From Verrucomicrobiales bacterium (GTDB lineage Bacteria; Verrucomicrobiota; Verrucomicrobiia; Verrucomicrobiales; DEV007), in NCBI GenBank assembly GCA_016795505.1, contig JAEUHH010000105.1, positions 1 to 64,000 of the forward strand: a stretch of 64,000 bases of DNA, in the 5' to 3' direction. The translations under genes were made by a program, and so were the position numbers. Every line of letters starts with the position of its first letter. Position 1 is the first letter of the stretch. Below the pieces are notes generated by a model that was not told where the DNA came from, made no database searches, and saw only the letters and a list, made by a program, of their open reading frames with translations. Shown in pieces: positions 6,253 through 63,925 of this stretch.

Positions 6253-6496
6253 CACGAATATCCTCATCTACGCGCTCGATCTGGAGCCATTCCAGCCAGG
6301 GAAGACCGCCATCGCGCAGGAGATCCTAACCAGCACCGACATCGGCTCTTCGTGCAGGTGCTCCAGGAGTTCTACGTTCAGGCCACCCACGCCCGCCGCC
6401 AAGGCCGCCCGCTGCCGGCAACTCCCCAGCGAAGAACTCAACCACGGCCAGGACTACGACGGCGTGACGGTGGTGAATCCGCTTCTCTCAGAAGCA
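6239..6496 (+). pseudogene. Frameshifted PIN-domain toxin
   Basis: Frame 1 starts MRFVDTNILIYALD, the standard PIN N-terminus, and runs to about residue 36. The family match then jumps to another frame (VQVLQEFYVQATHARRQGRP, from about 6353) and returns to frame 1 for the typical PIN C-terminus EELNHGQDYDGVTVVNPLL. This needs a frameshift near 6345 and another change or deletion near 6420. About 86 codons remain where about 130 are expected, so an internal piece is also missing. It should be non-functional. Confidence 0.72.
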
Positions 6497-7632: not shown

Positions 7633-7705
7633 TTCCGATCAGACCCTGTCTCCTCTCCGAGAGGACAGGGTCTCATCGGAGAGGCAACCCTGTTTCATCG
7701 GAAAG
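7633..7705. repeat. Palindromic repeat, composite copy
   Basis: This copy contains TTCCGATCAGACCCTGTC, then a central CTCTCCGAGAG palindrome, then ACAGGGTCTCATCGGAGAG, then CAACCCTGTTTCATCGGAAA. It is about one and a half units of the repeat family also seen at 15738, 21321, 41943, 48978, 53234 and 63875. It begins 10 bases beyond the stop of the AsmA-like gene (minus strand), where it could fold as a strong hairpin in the transcript 3' end. Confidence 0.85.
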
Positions 7706-7715
7706 CCGACCCGGT

Positions 7716-9920
7716 TCATTCGTTACCCGGCTGGGGCTGGGGAGCGGACGGCTCGGGTGGCGCGGAGTCGCGGCCTTTGCCGCCGCGGGGAATGATCTTC
7801 AGCAGGCCTTCGCCCAGCTTCTTCGCGCCTTCGCCGACCATGCGGGCGCCGTCGCCGAGACCGTCGCCGACGGCTTTCACCCCGCCGGTGACCACGTCGG
7901 CGCCCTCGCCCAGCACATTGCCGGTCGCCTTGATCGCCCCGGAGGCGGCTTGGTGGGCGCCCTCGATGCCACCCTTGGCCACGTCGAACACGCCGCGCAC
8001 GGCATCCGAGGCGAATTCGGCAGGCACATGCTTCAGCTTCAGGTCGAGATTGTCCACCCGGCCGCTGCCTTCGACGACGAGCGCCTTCGAGAGCAGCCCC
8101 GTGACCAGCCCCAGGGCGCCGACGAGGTTGCCCTGGGCTTCGAACTGGGTCTGCCAGTTGGTCAGATTCAGGGTGCCGCCGACTTCGACGCGGGTGCCAT
8201 CGGCCAGGATGACGAGATCGCGGGTCTCCAGACGTCCATCGCCGATGGTGAAGGTCGCGGTCAGTTCGCTGCGCTTGTCCGCATCGCCGAAGACGGGCAC
8301 CACGCTGCCCATCAGGTTCTGCACGGGACCGATGACGGGCACTTTGTAGAGCTTGGCGGCATCGAGCCGCAGACTTCCCTGCCCCCGCATGGTCGCAAGG
8401 GAGAAGCCGCCGCCGCCCTCGAAGTGACCGGTGAGCACGCCGGGTAGCTCGGCGCTGCCGCCGAGGTGATTCACGATCGCCTGCAGGGGCAACCCGGCGA
8501 GGTCGACGGTGCCCTGAAAGGTGCGGTCGGCTGTCTCCAGGTCGGCTTTGCCCCGATAGGTGAAGGCTCCTCCCAGGATGTTGGCCTGCAGGGACTCGGT
8601 CTGAAAGCCACCATCGCCCACGCGCACCCGTCCATTGATGCCCTCGATGAGGAGCGGTCGCTGGCCGATCATCACGGTCATGCCGGTCTGGTGGCGGTAG
8701 TGCACGTCGAGGTCGCTGTTCCAGAAATCTTTGATCCGCAGGGTGCCCGAGGCATTCAGCAGCGGCGGCTCGTCCTGTTTCAGGGTGGCGGCGAAGGGGG
8801 CGATCTTAGGATTGATGTCGCGCAGCAGGCCGAGGATATGGGCGGAGGATTGGAACCGCTCCACCGTGGCGATATTCGTGCCCGAGTCCCACACGGCCGC
8901 GCCGGTGATGAGCCCGCCCTGATAGACGAGATTGAACGCCGGCAGTTCCAGCCGCTCATCGCCCTCGGCAAAGGCAAACTCGACCGACGCAGAATCCAGC
9001 GGCACTTTTCGCCAGTTGAATTGCCGCCCCATGAAGCGGCCCTGTACGGTAACGGGAGCCTCGGCCGAATGATCGACGACAAAGCGGGCCTGCAACTCGG
9101 GCCGGACGCCTTCCTCGCGGCTCGTCACATCCAGCCAGGGCATCAGCGCCTTGAAAAAGGCAAAGTCGGCCACTTTTTTCGTCTTCGGTTTGCCGGCCAG
9201 CGCGGCATCCTTCTCTTTCTGATCGCGTTTGCGCCGTTGGTCGCGGGTGGACAGGATCTGGCCCTCCAGGTTGAAGTCGAGATCGCCGATGCGTCCGCGG
9301 AATTGCTCGACCAGTACGTCGTTCGGCCGCCCGATCACCGAGAGGCGGAAGTCCTCGATCGTCGCCACCACCCCACCGCTCTCGTAGCAGACCAGGGTGG
9401 CGTCGCGGGTGGTGAATGAGGTCGTCAGGCCGCCCGTGAGCCGTTTTTGGATCAAGCCGACCAGGTCGAAGCTGAAGCCGATCTCCGAGCAGGTGAGCAG
9501 GAGCCGGTCTTTCTCCGCTGTCTCGTAGAGCCTCACATCGTTCAGTACCAGGCCGCGGGTGAACACGTAGGAAGCCGAGCCGTAGTCCATGTGAATGCGC
9601 TGCCGGGCCAACTCCGCGGTGAGCAGCTTTTCGCCCTCCATCCGCAGCCAGCCACGGGAAAACCACACCGCCACGATCAGGGCGGCGGCGAGAAACAGCA
9701 CCATCAACATGCTGCCGACGACGAGCCGCTTGCACCAGCGAAACACCCCCACGCGCGGCCGGCGGCGGTTGGCGCCGTCGGGCTCGGAGGCATTGGCCTG
9801 CCGACAGCCCAGTTGGCGGCTCAGCCACCCGGCATCGCCATCGGAGTCGAGAAATACTGGATCTGCTCCGCGCTGATCGTCTGGCGCGTCTCTTCCTTCG
9901 GAATCGTTGATCTTACTCAT
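7716..9920 (-). CDS. Large AsmA-like membrane-anchored protein
   Basis: A 734-residue protein. It has a charged cytoplasmic N-terminus, a membrane segment near residues 65-90 (LVVGSMLMVLFLAAALIVAV) and a long beta-rich periplasmic part resembling the AsmA/TamB superfamily: repeated lines such as FRGRIGDLDFNLEGQILS, ALVVEGSGRVDNLDLKLKHV and the AsmA C-terminal pattern TIGDGRLETRDLVILADGTR. The last 100 residues are Gly/Ala-rich and amphipathic (VTGGVKAVGDGLGDGARMVG). AsmA-like proteins are thought to bridge the envelope for lipid transport. It is a single gene; the palindromic repeat follows its stop. Confidence 0.68.
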   Translation of the reverse strand: MSKINDSEGRDAPDDQRGADPVFLDSDGDAGWLSRQLGCRQANASEPDGANRRRPRVGVFRWCKRLVVGSMLMVLFLAAALIVAVWFSRGWLRMEGEKLLTAELARQRIHMDYGSASYVFTRGLVLNDVRLYETAEKDRLLLTCSEIGFSFDLVGLIQKRLTGGLTTSFTTRDATLVCYESGGVVATIEDFRLSVIGRPNDVLVEQFRGRIGDLDFNLEGQILSTRDQRRKRDQKEKDAALAGKPKTKKVADFAFFKALMPWLDVTSREEGVRPELQARFVVDHSAEAPVTVQGRFMGRQFNWRKVPLDSASVEFAFAEGDERLELPAFNLVYQGGLITGAAVWDSGTNIATVERFQSSAHILGLLRDINPKIAPFAATLKQDEPPLLNASGTLRIKDFWNSDLDVHYRHQTGMTVMIGQRPLLIEGINGRVRVGDGGFQTESLQANILGGAFTYRGKADLETADRTFQGTVDLAGLPLQAIVNHLGGSAELPGVLTGHFEGGGGFSLATMRGQGSLRLDAAKLYKVPVIGPVQNLMGSVVPVFGDADKRSELTATFTIGDGRLETRDLVILADGTRVEVGGTLNLTNWQTQFEAQGNLVGALGLVTGLLSKALVVEGSGRVDNLDLKLKHVPAEFASDAVRGVFDVAKGGIEGAHQAASGAIKATGNVLGEGADVVTGGVKAVGDGLGDGARMVGEGAKKLGEGLLKIIPRGGKGRDSAPPEPSAPQPQPGNE

Positions 9921-15219: not shown

Positions 15220-16458
15220 ATGACCGCAGCGGCAAATCGGGACACAACAGACTGGGACGTGGTCGTGATCGGCTCCGGCGGGGCCGGCTGCGCCGCCGCG
15301 ATCGAAGCCAGCTTGCTCGGCGCCCGTGTCCTGATCCTGACCAAGTCAGATCCCTTTGACTCAAAGACCGCCCGCGCCCAGGGAGGCATCCAGGCCGCCA
15401 CCGGCCCCGGCGATTCCGTCGAGCGGCATTTCCAGGACACCTGGGAAGCCGGCAAGCGCCAGGCCAGCGAGCCGCTCGTCCGTCTGCTCGCCGAGAAGGC
15501 GCCCGACACCATCCGCTGGCTCGAAGAACTCGGTGTGGCTTTCGACCGCGACGGCGACGACTACCGACGCCTGTCCGCCGCGGGCCTGAGCGCTCCCCGC
15601 GTCCATACCAGTGGCGACGCCGCTGGCCGCGGCATCGCCGGAGCCGTGCTCCGCCGCGTCGAGGACCTCGGCATCCCGGTCTGGCACGGCACCGGGGTGA
15701 TGAATCTGGAGAAAACCGCCGACGGCTTCCGCCTGTTTCTGATCAAACAGGGTATGATCGGAGATCAGACCCTGTCTGCTCGCACCGTGATCCTCGCCAC
15801 CGGCGGCACCATGCCGGCGGAAAAAGGCGCCGGCCTCGTCGAGGAGGGCGTGCCCGGCGCCCCGGACGGGCTCGCCCTGGCGGAGCGCCTCGGCGCCCGC
15901 GTCGTGATGCCCGATCTGGTCCAGTATCACCCCACCGGCATCGTGCTACCCAAATCGCTGCGCCGCAAACGCCTCCCGGAGACCATGCGCGGCTGCGGCG
16001 CCCGTTTCCTCAATCGCGACGGCGAGGAGTTCGTCGATCCCCTGCTCACCCGCAACGACCTGACCCAGGCCATCATTGAGGAGTGCCGGCGCGGCAAGGG
16101 CATCGAGACCGATGACGGACGCCAGGGTGTCTGGCTCGACACCCCGCGCATCGACCAGATTCACGGCCCCGGCTACCTGCGCGAGCATTTTCCCACCTTC
16201 CACGAGCTCTTTCTGGCCGAGGGACATGACCTCAGCACCGAACCTGTGCTGGTTTTCCCGATTTTACATTATACCTTGGGCGGCGTGGAGATAGACGAGC
16301 ATGCCCAGACCGCCGTGCCCGGCCTGTACGCCGCGGGGGAAACGACCTGGGGCGTGCATGGCATGGAACGCCTGATGGGCAACTCCCTGCTCGACATCTT
16401 CGTTTTCGGGCGCATCGCCGGCCAGGCCGCGGCCCGCGCCGCCCTGCAGCTTTCGTAA
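15220..16458 (+). CDS. Fumarate-reductase-like FAD enzyme, candidate sulfoacrylate reductase
   Basis: A 412-residue flavoprotein of the SdhA/FrdA/NadB superfamily without the C-terminal helical domain. FAD binding: VVVIGSGGAGCAAAIEASLL (residues 11-30). Catalytic positions of fumarate reductases are present: QYHPTG near 237, ETMRGCGARFLNRDG near 253, LTRNDL near 275 (matching the proton-donor Arg), HYTLGGVEID near 350 and GVHGMERLMGNSLLDIFVFG near 380. The ending is of FrdA/SdhA type, not the NadB type (HGANRLASNSLLE). No haem or flavin-transfer site is seen. It overlaps the lyase gene by one base (TAATG). A palindromic repeat is inserted in frame at residues 173-187. Proposed reaction: sulfoacrylate to 3-sulfopropionate; aspartate oxidase is the main alternative. 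Confidence 0.85.
   Translation: MTAAANRDTTDWDVVVIGSGGAGCAAAIEASLLGARVLILTKSDPFDSKTARAQGGIQAATGPGDSVERHFQDTWEAGKRQASEPLVRLLAEKAPDTIRWLEELGVAFDRDGDDYRRLSAAGLSAPRVHTSGDAAGRGIAGAVLRRVEDLGIPVWHGTGVMNLEKTADGFRLFLIKQGMIGDQTLSARTVILATGGTMPAEKGAGLVEEGVPGAPDGLALAERLGARVVMPDLVQYHPTGIVLPKSLRRKRLPETMRGCGARFLNRDGEEFVDPLLTRNDLTQAIIEECRRGKGIETDDGRQGVWLDTPRIDQIHGPGYLREHFPTFHELFLAEGHDLSTEPVLVFPILHYTLGGVEIDEHAQTAVPGLYAAGETTWGVHGMERLMGNSLLDIFVFGRIAGQAAARAALQLS
15738..15778. repeat. Palindromic repeat inside the flavoprotein gene
   Basis: TCTGATCAAACAGGGTATG is followed by ATCGGAGATCAGACCCTGTC, a near-perfect palindrome around ATCGGAGAT. It is in frame and encodes LIKQGMIGDQTLSA. It lies between ADGFRLF and ARTVILATGG, the surface beta-loop before the last FAD-domain strand, where insertions are tolerated. 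Confidence 0.88.
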
Positions 16459-21320: not shown

Positions 21321-21378
21321 GGCTTTCCGATGCAACCCTGTTTCATCTCCGATGATACCCTGTCTGATCGGAAAGCCC
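21321..21378. repeat. Palindromic repeat, intergenic copy
   Basis: GGCTTTCCGATGCAACCCTG, TTTCATCTCCGATGATACCC and TGTCTGATCGGAAAGCC form an inverted repeat whose outer arms (GGCTTTCCGAT / ATCGGAAAGCC) pair perfectly. It lies between the divergent tetR and methyltransferase genes, close upstream of the latter. The minus-strand frame reads FPIRQGIIGDETGLHRK, the same peptide as in the intragenic copies. Confidence 0.87.
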
Positions 21379-38427: not shown

Positions 38428-39651
38428 ATGTCGAACAAAAAGCCCCTCCAAAATCCCTCCCCGGAGATCCACCCCGACACGATCCCCGTGCCCGGCGAAG
38501 CCGGACTCAAGGCCATCGAGTTGCTCGACAAACACCGCAACTTCGTGATGATCGGCACGGTGGGTATCGCCCTCGTCATTTGCGGCGCCTTGGTGATGCG
38601 GGAGCTGGGCCGTCAGAAACGGAGCGAAGCCGCCCAAGCCTTTTCAGCAGCCGCCGGAGAGCGCTCGATTGAAAAGCTCGACGCCGTCGTCTCCACCTAC
38701 CCCGGCAGCATTCCCGCCGGCAATGCCCTGCTGAGCAAGGCCGAGATCCAGCTCAATCAGGAGAAAAGCGAGGACGCCAAAGCCACCTTCCAGACTTTCG
38801 TCGATACCTACAAGGACCATCCCCGCCTCGCCCAGGGCCTGTATGCCCTCGGCAATCTCCACCACGTCGCCGGCGATCTCGACCAGGCCGCCAGTTTTTA
38901 CGATCAAGCCGCCAAGGCCGATCCCAATACCGATCTCGGCCCGCTCCTCGAGATCCGCCAGGGAGACATCGCCCTCGCCCGCGCCGATGCCCTGCGCAAA
39001 GAGGGCAAAGCCGAGGAGGCCGATGCCAAAGTCGCCGAAGCCAAAAAACGCTACGAGGACAGCATCACCCGTCCCGCCTTCCGCGCCAGCCCCTTCATCG
39101 AAATCGCCGAAGCCCGTCTCGCCCTTGCCGATGTCGGCGATGTGCCCGTCGTCCCCGCTCCCCCCAAGCCCGAGCCGAAACCCGAGACTCCCGCTCCAGC
39201 CACGCCTGCGACTCCCGCTCCAGCCACGCCCGCGACTCCCGCTCCGGCCACCCCTGCGACTCCCGCTCCAGCCACGCCCGCGACTCCCGCTCCGGCCACG
39301 CCTGCCACTCCCGCTCCGGCCACGCCTGCCACTCCCGCTCCGGCCACGCCTGCGACTCCCGCTCCGGCCACGCCTGCCACTCCGGCTCCGGCCACGCCTG
39401 CGACTCCGGCTCCGGCCAAACCCGCCGACACTCCCAAAGCCGCCACTCCTGCCCCGGCCACACCCGCGACTCCGGCTCCTTCTGCTCCGGCAACCCCGGC
39501 TCCGGCCAAACCAGCCGAAGCTCCCAAAGCCGAAGCGCCGGCCCCTGCTGCCCCGGCTCCAGCCAAACCCGCCGACGCTCCCAAAGCTCCAGCTCCGGCC
39601 GCTCCGGCTGACGCTCCCAAAGCTCCGGCTCCAGGCGGCGGTACCAACTGA
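38428..39651 (+). CDS. Membrane-anchored TPR protein with a long Pro-Ala-Thr repeat tail
   Basis: A 407-residue protein. One membrane segment near residues 38-55 (FVMIGTVGIALVICGALVM) separates a short cytoplasmic part from an extracytoplasmic TPR domain (YPGSIPAGNALLSKAEIQLN, KDHPRLAQGLYALGNLHHVA, DLDQAASFYDQAAKADPNTD), like the TPR_21/YfgM type. From residue about 245 to the end the sequence is almost entirely Pro, Ala, Thr and Lys, driven by a 24-base DNA repeat encoding PATPATPA. The tail may span cell wall or bind lipids or sugars; this is inference. The reverse strand is open too (a GVAGVAGAG frame) but is a repeat artefact. Confidence 0.78.
   Translation: MSNKKPLQNPSPEIHPDTIPVPGEAGLKAIELLDKHRNFVMIGTVGIALVICGALVMRELGRQKRSEAAQAFSAAAGERSIEKLDAVVSTYPGSIPAGNALLSKAEIQLNQEKSEDAKATFQTFVDTYKDHPRLAQGLYALGNLHHVAGDLDQAASFYDQAAKADPNTDLGPLLEIRQGDIALARADALRKEGKAEEADAKVAEAKKRYEDSITRPAFRASPFIEIAEARLALADVGDVPVVPAPPKPEPKPETPAPATPATPAPATPATPAPATPATPAPATPATPAPATPATPAPATPATPAPATPATPAPATPATPAPATPATPAPAKPADTPKAATPAPATPATPAPSAPATPAPAKPAEAPKAEAPAPAAPAPAKPADAPKAPAPAAPADAPKAPAPGGGTN
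39187..39426 (+). repeat. 24-base tandem repeat inside the TPR gene
   Basis: Units begin ACTCCCGCTCCAGCCACGCC at 39187, 39211, 39235, 39259, 39283, 39307, 39331, 39355, 39379 and 39403 (ten units, the last diverging), each followed by four more bases, giving PAPATPAT. Units differ at few positions (CCCGCT/CCGGCT, CCTGCG/CCCGCG), a sign of recent expansion. Confidence 0.92.
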
Positions 39652-41942: not shown

Positions 41943-41993
41943 TTCCGATCAGACCCTGTTGCCTCGCCGATCAGACCCTGTTCCATCGGAAAC
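41943..41993. repeat. Palindromic repeat immediately after the DUF1501 stop
   Basis: TTCCGATCAGACCCTGTTGC, CTCGCCGATCAGACCCTGTT, CCATCGGAAACC. It starts at the base after the stop codon (TGA 41940-41942). The minus-strand frame reads FPMEQGLIGEATGSDR, matching the family peptide. Confidence 0.85.
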
Positions 41994-48977: not shown

Positions 48978-49027
48978 TTCCGATCGAACCCTGTTCGATC
49001 TCCGATCATACCCTGTTTGATCGGAAA
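48978..49027. repeat. Palindromic repeat after the deacetylase stop
   Basis: TTCCGATCGAACCCTGTTCG, ATCTCCGATCATACCCTGTT, TGATCGGAAA. It starts three bases past the TGA (48972-48974). The minus frame reads FPIKQGMIGDRTGFDR. It ends 22 bases before the yjbQ start, so the shared gap is almost all repeat. Confidence 0.87.
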
Positions 49028-51788: not shown

Positions 51789-53711
51789 ATGGGCCAGATC
51801 TCCCGAGAAACGGTCGAACGCATCATCGACGAGAACGACATCGTCGAGGTGATCGGCTCGTACTTTCCGCTGAAGCGGGCCGGGTCGCGCTACGTGGCGC
51901 TGTGCCCGTTCCACTCGGAGCGGACGCCGAGCTTCGGGGTGAATCCGCAGCGGCAGATCTTCCACTGCTTCGGCTGCGGGGCGGGCGGCGACGTGATCCG
52001 CTTCGTAATGCAGTATGAAAACCTGCTGTTTCCCGACGCCGCTAAGAAACTGGCCGAGCGGGTCGGCATCCATCTGATCGAGGAGGCGTTCGATCCGAAG
52101 GAGGAAGCCAGCCGCAAGCTGCGCCGCGATCTCCAGTCGCTGAATCGCAAGGCGGCGGAGTGGTTTCACCATCTCCTGATGCGCGCCCATGAGGCCCAGG
52201 CGGCACGCGAATACCTGAAAAGCCGGGGCTTTGACAGCGATCTGGCGAAACGCTGGCAGCTCGGCTACGCGCCCGAGTCCGGTGGCATGCTGGTGGACTG
52301 GGCCAAGCGCGAGGGCTTCACGGTACGTCATCTGGTGGACAGCGGTCTGGCCCAGTGGCGCGAGGAGCATCAGCCCAATCGCGGGGCATACGCGCGCTTC
52401 CGGCACCGGCTCATGTTTCCAGTGGCGAACGACTTCGGCGAGGTCATCGCCTTCTCCGGCCGGGTGCTGGCGAAGGATCAGCCGGGCGGCAAGTATGTGA
52501 ACTCGCCGGAGACGGTGCTGTTCAACAAGAGCAAGACCTTCTTCGGCCTCGACAGAAGCAAGCGGGCCATCATCCGCGACAACCGCGCCGTGGTGGTGGA
52601 AGGCCAGATCGACCTGATCAGCGCCTCCGAAGCCGGGATCGACAACATCGTGGCCCCGCTGGGCACGGCTTTCACCGACCAGCATGCCCGCATCCTGAAA
52701 CGGCACACCGGTGACAGCGGCGAGGTGGTGCTGTGCTACGACTCCGACACGGCGGGCTACAACGCCGTGGTAAAAGCCTTTCGCCAACTCGCCGCCGTGG
52801 GCCTGCTGGTCCGGGTGGCGGCGCTCCCGCCGGGTGAGGATCCGGATTCGCTGATCCGGAAACAAGGCGCCGATGCACTGAAAGCCATCCTCGCCAACGC
52901 GCCGGAGTTCTTCGATTTCCAGATCGACCGCCATGGTGGCACGCGGAATCTCGACGGCCTGCGGGAGCGGCTCGCCTTTGCCCGTGAGTTGGCGGAAAAC
53001 ATCGCCCTCGTCGATGACAAAATGCTCCAGGACTCCCTGATCCATCGCGTGACCGCCCGCCTGGGCGTAGGCGAAGCCGACATCCGCCGGCTCGTTGCCG
53101 AGGCCAAACGCGCCGCCGACCGCGTGGCGCGCACCGTCTCGAAGCGGGAAGCCGCCGAGATCCGCCGCGCCGAGCAGTCCGCCGGGCCTCCCGGCGCCCC
53201 ATCCGGACATCCGGGGGCACCGGGTGCGTCGGCCGATCCGATGCAACAGGGTATGATCGGCGATCTGACCCTGTCCAATCGATCTGTGCGCATGCTCTGC
53301 CAACTCCTCCTCGGCGATGCCAGCGCGAGACGCACCCTGACCGCCCAGCCGCCGCCGGACTACCTGCGGGACCTGCCGGAGACGGAGTTTCTCACCCGCC
53401 TGTGGCTGGCCGACTTCGACCCGGGCTCGACTGCCAGCGTGGCGGCTTTCACCGGCTCCCTCTCCCGCCCGGAGCAGGACGCAGTGGCGCGGCTGATGGA
53501 CCAGCCCCTGCCTCCCGATGCCGGCAACTACGCCCCGGAGTGTCTGGCCAGTCTGTGGCGTCAGGCGACGCAAAACCGCATCCGCGGACTGAAGGCGCAG
53601 CTCAATGATCCGAGGCTGGAGCCCGCCCGGTTGGAGGCTCTGACCAAAGAACTCCTTGACCTCACCAACCGGCTCAACGATACTCCTCCGCTCGCCCCGC
53701 CGGGCGGGTGA
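51789..53711 (+). CDS. dnaG: DNA primase
   Basis: A 640-residue primase. The N-terminal CHC2 zinc finger is visible ([33 protein letters not shown]). The catalytic core has [18 protein letters not shown] and the Toprim motifs [18 protein letters not shown] and [14 protein letters not shown]. From about residue 450 a Gly/Pro-rich linker ([20 protein letters not shown]) carries an in-frame palindromic repeat at residues 482-499, before the C-terminal helical domain that binds DnaB. It makes RNA primers for replication. The rpoD frame overlaps its end. Confidence 0.97.
53234..53284. repeat. Palindromic repeat inside dnaG
   Basis: CGATCCGATGCAACAGGGTA, TGATCGGCGATCTGACCCTG, TCCAATCGATC. It encodes [17 protein letters not shown] within the linker between the Toprim core and the helicase-binding domain. 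The frame is the same as in the flavoprotein copy (QGMIGDxTLS). Confidence 0.85.
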
Positions 53712-63874: not shown

Positions 63875-63925
63875 TTTCCGATCAAACAGGGTCTCATCTC
63901 CGATCAAACAGGGTCTCATCGGAAC
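63875..63925. repeat. Palindromic repeat at the right edge
   Basis: TTTCCGATCAAACAGGGTCT, CATCTCCGATCAAACAGGGT and CTCATCGGAAC. It lies five bases beyond the stop (63931-63933, minus strand) of a gene leaving the window. The plus frame reads FPIKQGLISDQTGSHR. Confidence 0.85.

Follow-up and report, generated by a model that had tools for sequence, protein, structure and literature searches.

MatP/matS-type systems consist of short sites read by a dedicated chromosome-organising protein, and matS and maoS each serve a single macrodomain. Repeats of the REP/BIME/REPIN class are short and extragenic, lie near gene ends and comprise several units per site. HIP1 of cyanobacteria is a highly iterated palindrome found across the genome (PMC4390886), and the Rickettsia palindromic elements (RPE) are insertions of ~150 bp (PMC10969869). 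The uptake sequences USS and DUS are reported to be significantly evenly spaced and to lie partly in coding DNA, and an origin in place by point mutation has been suggested for them (PMC1939737). The element described here is like HIP1 in being highly iterated, palindromic and genome-wide, whereas the HIP1 sequence is an invariant 8-mer (GCGATCGC) with a link to methyltransferase sites and the element is paired, degenerate, evenly spaced and 47 bp long. Its short sites, putatively read by a chromosome-organising protein, recall MatP/matS, but unlike matS and maoS they occur genome-wide in hundreds of copies. A literature search returned no description of the element, and we found no known system with hundreds of paired dyads this evenly spaced and kept inside essential genes.

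The window (the whole 64,000-nucleotide stretch analysed) belongs to a 6.55-Mb draft genome of an uncultured bacterium of the Verrucomicrobiota. Its dnaG gene carries, in frame at positions 53234-53284, the sequence GATCCGATGCAACAGGGTATGATCGGCGATCTGACCCTGTCCAATCGATCT, which encodes 17 residues and is laid out as TCC-GATGCAACAGGGTATGATC-GGC-GATCTGACCCTGTCCAATC-GAT. Pfam matched a zinc ribbon, DNAG_N, Toprim and DnaB_bind (residues 375-429) in DnaG, and the element starts at residue ~483, past the core and ahead of the C-terminal domain. The sequence and the Pfam domains thus agree with the sequence-only reading, which had placed an in-frame repeat in the linker from Toprim to the helicase part. 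A second in-gene copy lies in the gene of a FAD-binding enzyme (the flavoprotein), and further copies in the window are intergenic (Table 1). The gene downstream of the intergenic copy that starts at 48979 is adjoined by an element in all three sister species. A search of viral contigs gave no match to the element. Unrelated to it, positions 39139-39621 of the window hold a low-complexity tandem repeat with 24-nt and 36-nt periods, whose translation would be rich in proline, alanine and lysine.

Table 1. Elements in the window and the genes that host them
Feature	Position	Strand	Details
Host gene dnaG (DNA primase)	51789..53711	+	640 aa; translation and Pfam
dnaG element, two dyad units in 22-bp phase	53237..53283	.	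symmetric part, exact extent
dnaG unit 1, GATGCAACAGGGTATGATC	53240..53258	.	core ACAGGGT at 53246-53252; 0 mismatches
dnaG unit 2, GATCTGACCCTGTCCAATC	53262..53280	.	core ACCCTGT at 53268-53274; 0 mismatches
Host gene of a FAD-binding, L-aspartate oxidase-like protein (the flavoprotein)	15259..16458	+	399 aa
Element in the FAD-enzyme gene, LIKQGMIGDQTLSART	15738..15784	.	same frame as in dnaG
Intergenic element, four units 22 bp apart	7634..7724	.	motif search
Intergenic element, two units	21326..21372	.	motif search
Intergenic element, two units	41944..41990	.	motif search
Intergenic element, two units	48979..49025	.	motif search
Intergenic element, two units	63877..63923	.	motif search

The 22-bp unit has the dyad motif GATNNN-ACAGGGT/ACCCTGT-NNNATC, with ACAGGGT or its reverse complement ACCCTGT as the core. 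Each dyad spans 19 bp (GAT-N3-AC-MSK-GT-N3-ATC) around an asymmetric 3-bp centre, and successive dyads start 22 bp apart. Genome-wide, 1,326 units were found at ≤1 mismatch compared to 3 for a backwards-pattern control, together with 556 full pairs at ≤3 mismatches and 699 pairs of cores set 22 bp apart. The element rule, gene calls and spacing analysis were applied to 1.57 Mb (24%) of the genome, window included, where the fixed rule returned 164 elements, of which 121 were pairs, 33 triples, 5 larger and 5 single. A chance origin was considered and is ruled out by the controls in the same 1.57 Mb, since reversing the motif or permuting the dyad in four ways gave 0-2. The element-finding rules, the gene caller and the window of the codon test below were our own, each tried in few forms.

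In this sample 203 of the 204 steps between units measured 22 bp. The spacer between units was almost always TCC, GGA, GCC or GGC, and the elements ended sharply with TTTCC and GGAAA, without a conserved flank. One fifth of the units had ACCGGGT or ACCCGGT cores, which are single-step intermediates linking the two core orientations. A centre with A on both sides was never seen (55 expected), as expected if the two half-sites are read together, and complementarity of the variable arms was not above chance (7% seen, 11.6% expected). The absent A/A centre and the non-complementary arms would fit a dimer reading two half-sites. An RNA hairpin or a transcription terminator placed after genes is very improbable as an explanation of the repeat. 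The palindromic units did fold better than shuffles and many elements follow stop codons, but the lack of excess arm complementarity speaks against it, as do the elements inside genes and the absence of any Rfam match in the window. Nor was the hairpin followed by a T run of an intrinsic terminator found, a T run adjoining only 6 of the 164 elements.

The elements were spaced far more evenly than by chance. Mean spacing was 8.1 kb with a coefficient of variation of 0.52, while placing the same numbers at random within intergenic and genic sequence gave 1.08 (lowest of 300 trials, 0.89), and 7% of the gaps were under 3 kb as opposed to 38% for random placement. By gene calls from a home-made codon model, which is adequate for the frame analysis below and gives no annotation, 131 elements were intergenic (80%, with 11.5% expected for random 47-bp windows), 25 genic and 8 partial. 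Convergent gaps were enriched (26 vs 13.9 expected) and divergent gaps depleted (23 vs 37.6 expected), and same-strand copies lay nearer to the stop codon by 50 to 23. This indicates that the elements are not typical operators. None of the 38 gene adjacencies that sister species share contained an element, as against 27% of the broken ones, gene order being otherwise much rearranged. We considered the elements as rearrangement breakpoints and rejected this, because the shared adjacencies are probably operons, where few elements would be expected in any case, and the contrast is thus no sign of recombination.

The comparison across species covered three in-gene sites, in dnaG, tatD and hemC, and at each of these an element occupies the corresponding codons of sister species, whose proteins are 68-77% identical to ours. 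The dnaG site has the same position in our own species and its three sisters, the four species of the genus; it reads GACTCAACAGGGTCAAGTCCCCGACCTAACCCTGTCAAATC in G001, is nearly identical in G003 and has a degenerate first unit in G002. By this comparison the dnaG element is not a recent insertion. A dnaG ortholog of another genus is without the element, and its LSNRS-like segment is native. In tatD, G001 and G003 have elements with AGAGGGT cores and the G002 copy is degenerate. In hemC, an element occupies the corresponding codons of G001 and G003, its two cores both reversed in orientation, and no hemC match was found in G002. The flip of both cores is seen on comparing L298:3304-3344 of our genome with L311 and L312 of the sister species. 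Since ACCGGGT and ACCCGGT intermediates are common, a path of point changes exists between the two hemC orientations.

With a test window extending 6 bases past each core, 11 of 14 conserved residues in and around the dnaG and tatD cores had identical codons, compared to 24% outside (p=4e-5). Selection on the dyad at the DNA level, as for a matS-like site, was therefore significant for dnaG and tatD together and not for hemC alone, where 3 of 5 codons were identical compared to 40%, no clear excess. The kept codons were CAG GGT and ACC CTG in dnaG, and GGT and AGA GGG TTG in tatD. This conservation appears to fit the DNA and not the peptide, as codons were kept where the DNA motif needs them.

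The sequence-only reading had noted that the dnaG and flavoprotein copies share a reading frame, and had proposed that a single frame and orientation is tolerated or that the peptide is harmless or even selected. The shared frame is correct and the bias is general: among 20 in-gene pairs or triples away from gene ends, 15 were in the favoured frame, and 3 and 2 in the others. The proposed tabulation of in-gene copies thus upheld a strong bias but no absolute rule. The pairs in the other two frames contradict a single tolerated frame, and a single orientation means little for a dyad. The frame bias is mostly explained by stop codons. In intergenic pairs the favoured frame was open in 97% of cases, and the remaining frames in 50% and 55%. 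From stop avoidance alone 48% would be expected to use the favoured frame, compared to the 75% seen (P=0.014), and avoidance of some residues may add to the bias. This preference beyond stop avoidance is what speaks for the encoded peptide, QGMIGDxTLS, being itself tolerated by design or selected, an explanation to which we give almost no credence. Most elements lie between genes and other frames also occur, conserved codons follow the DNA motif, and the hemC peptide of the sister species differs (IQPSSIDDLTLLDR vs MQQGLIGDATGLDR) with the element kept in place.

We also considered that the element is a non-autonomous mobile repeat (of the REP/REPIN, MITE or RPE type) that has spread to sites of low harm, which we regard as rather improbable. 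Like REP/BIME/REPIN repeats, the element is short, multi-copy, palindromic and extragenic, lies near gene ends (here 3′ ends) and has several units per site, and like RPE it is a short repeat in frame within unrelated genes. Nearest neighbours within 3 mismatches were found for 30 of the 121 pairs (9.6 expected from shuffled arms and cores), and this mild similarity means that some copying of elements may occur. An IS200-like transposase fragment also lies 0.6 kb from a five-unit cluster. However, none of the 121 pairs were identical, which speaks against recent copying, and, unlike REP/BIME/REPIN repeats, the elements have non-complementary arms, are evenly spaced and are kept in coding genes, their positions in dnaG, tatD and hemC being shared between species. 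Unlike RPE, the element is ~47 bp long, is common to sister species and has no matching insertion in the hosts checked. Relative to solved relatives, hemC, tatD, an oxidoreductase and the FAD enzyme had no more than ~5 additional residues where the element lies, while an inserted element would add ~15, so that none of these four host proteins is lengthened by it. The in-gene copies that could be compared are, on this evidence, old and not insertions, and the idea of an inserted in-frame repeat is not borne out. For the flavoprotein, the best sister-species matches are ~36% identical and longer, with no close ortholog. Transposase-like matches numbered 2 in the 1.57 Mb, both Y1-type, at 0.6 and 3.3 kb from an element. 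The IS200-like fragment (PF01797) occupies L158:9080-9322 and 9801-9913, and the cluster near it has mostly ACCCGGT cores.

We give most weight to the even spacing, the same codons across species and the frozen codons in and around the cores. These point to a DNA site on which selection or drive acts, and speak against both the insertion of a repeat and selection for a peptide. In our preferred reading, which we believe has about an even chance of being right, the element serves as a recognition site on double-stranded DNA that organises the chromosome, and is neither a coding insert nor recently moved. We prefer chromosome organisation because of the double-dyad pairing, the genome-wide even spacing and the avoidance of promoters. 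The site would be bound by a putative dimeric protein and might serve, for example, in nucleoid folding or as a topological-domain site. Each 22-bp dyad unit would be read by one dimeric protein, and two units 22 bp apart would bring a pair of dimers onto one face of the helix. Selection would keep in place, essential genes included, some 700 such pairs, which occur about every 8 kb and are mostly intergenic and close to 3′ ends. More tentatively, the sites may act as a ruler, in which a dimeric protein on paired dyads every ~8 kb would set near-equal nucleoid domains, with the sites fixed, essential genes included, and the arms co-evolving with that protein by genus. No candidate for an autoregulated binding-protein gene was found beside the largest clusters.

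Among the genomes searched, the core pair occurred in hundreds of copies only in three genera of one family, in some rather than all of their genomes (699 in our genome, 321 in G001, 321 in G003, 640 in G025, 565 in G098 and 952 in G101). Named carriers include JAGROX01 (isolate HKST-UBA29), JARGPH01, JARGPJ01 and JARGOP01; JAGROX01 agrees with G001 in counts and in dnaG coordinates. The core pair was at background in the family's remaining genera and in the further families sampled from the order. Among 388 genomes drawn from the phylum, with our genome the sole member of its family, there was no other carrier, and the highest count, 8, came from another motif. Related genera had the same core, pairing and step, with arms that differed by lineage. 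Four pairs with the arms of our own genome were seen on contig C14 of G050, from another genus (at 6297, 18858, 23491 and 44801); the contig may have been assigned to the wrong genome or may contain transferred DNA.

The main rival to chromosome organisation is a self-DNA uptake sequence, in which cells of the family would take up site-bearing DNA, and uptake and recombination would drive the motif into tolerant places and produce lineage dialects. Even spacing and point evolution in place were both found, as in USS and DUS, and the rival shares these with the preferred reading. Like the USS and DUS of Pasteurellaceae and Neisseriaceae, the element also has a high copy number and is partly coding, and its motif shifts between related genera with the core unchanged. 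Nevertheless, we consider an uptake signal unlikely. Unlike USS and DUS, the element is a dyad pair with a fixed 22-bp step and is largely intergenic; one pair per ~8 kb is sparse, and the strict 22-bp dyad pairing points to a protein on double-stranded DNA. An uptake signal would be the first known to us in this phylum. If an organising protein reads the sites, the family would offer a direct test of whether sequence sets bacterial domain size. Under either reading the sites could be used as bait for finding the putative binding protein, and what limits codon choice in dnaG and tatD seems to be the chromosome rather than the protein.

Two observations concern other motifs. A different palindrome, approximately ACACTGTGGAAAAAAGTTTTCCACACTGT, occurred in few copies each in G218, G243, G359 and G390, from another family of the phylum. 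In G234 the backwards control pattern gave 57 matches compared to 0 for the pattern itself, which may reflect another repeated motif with a 22-bp step.
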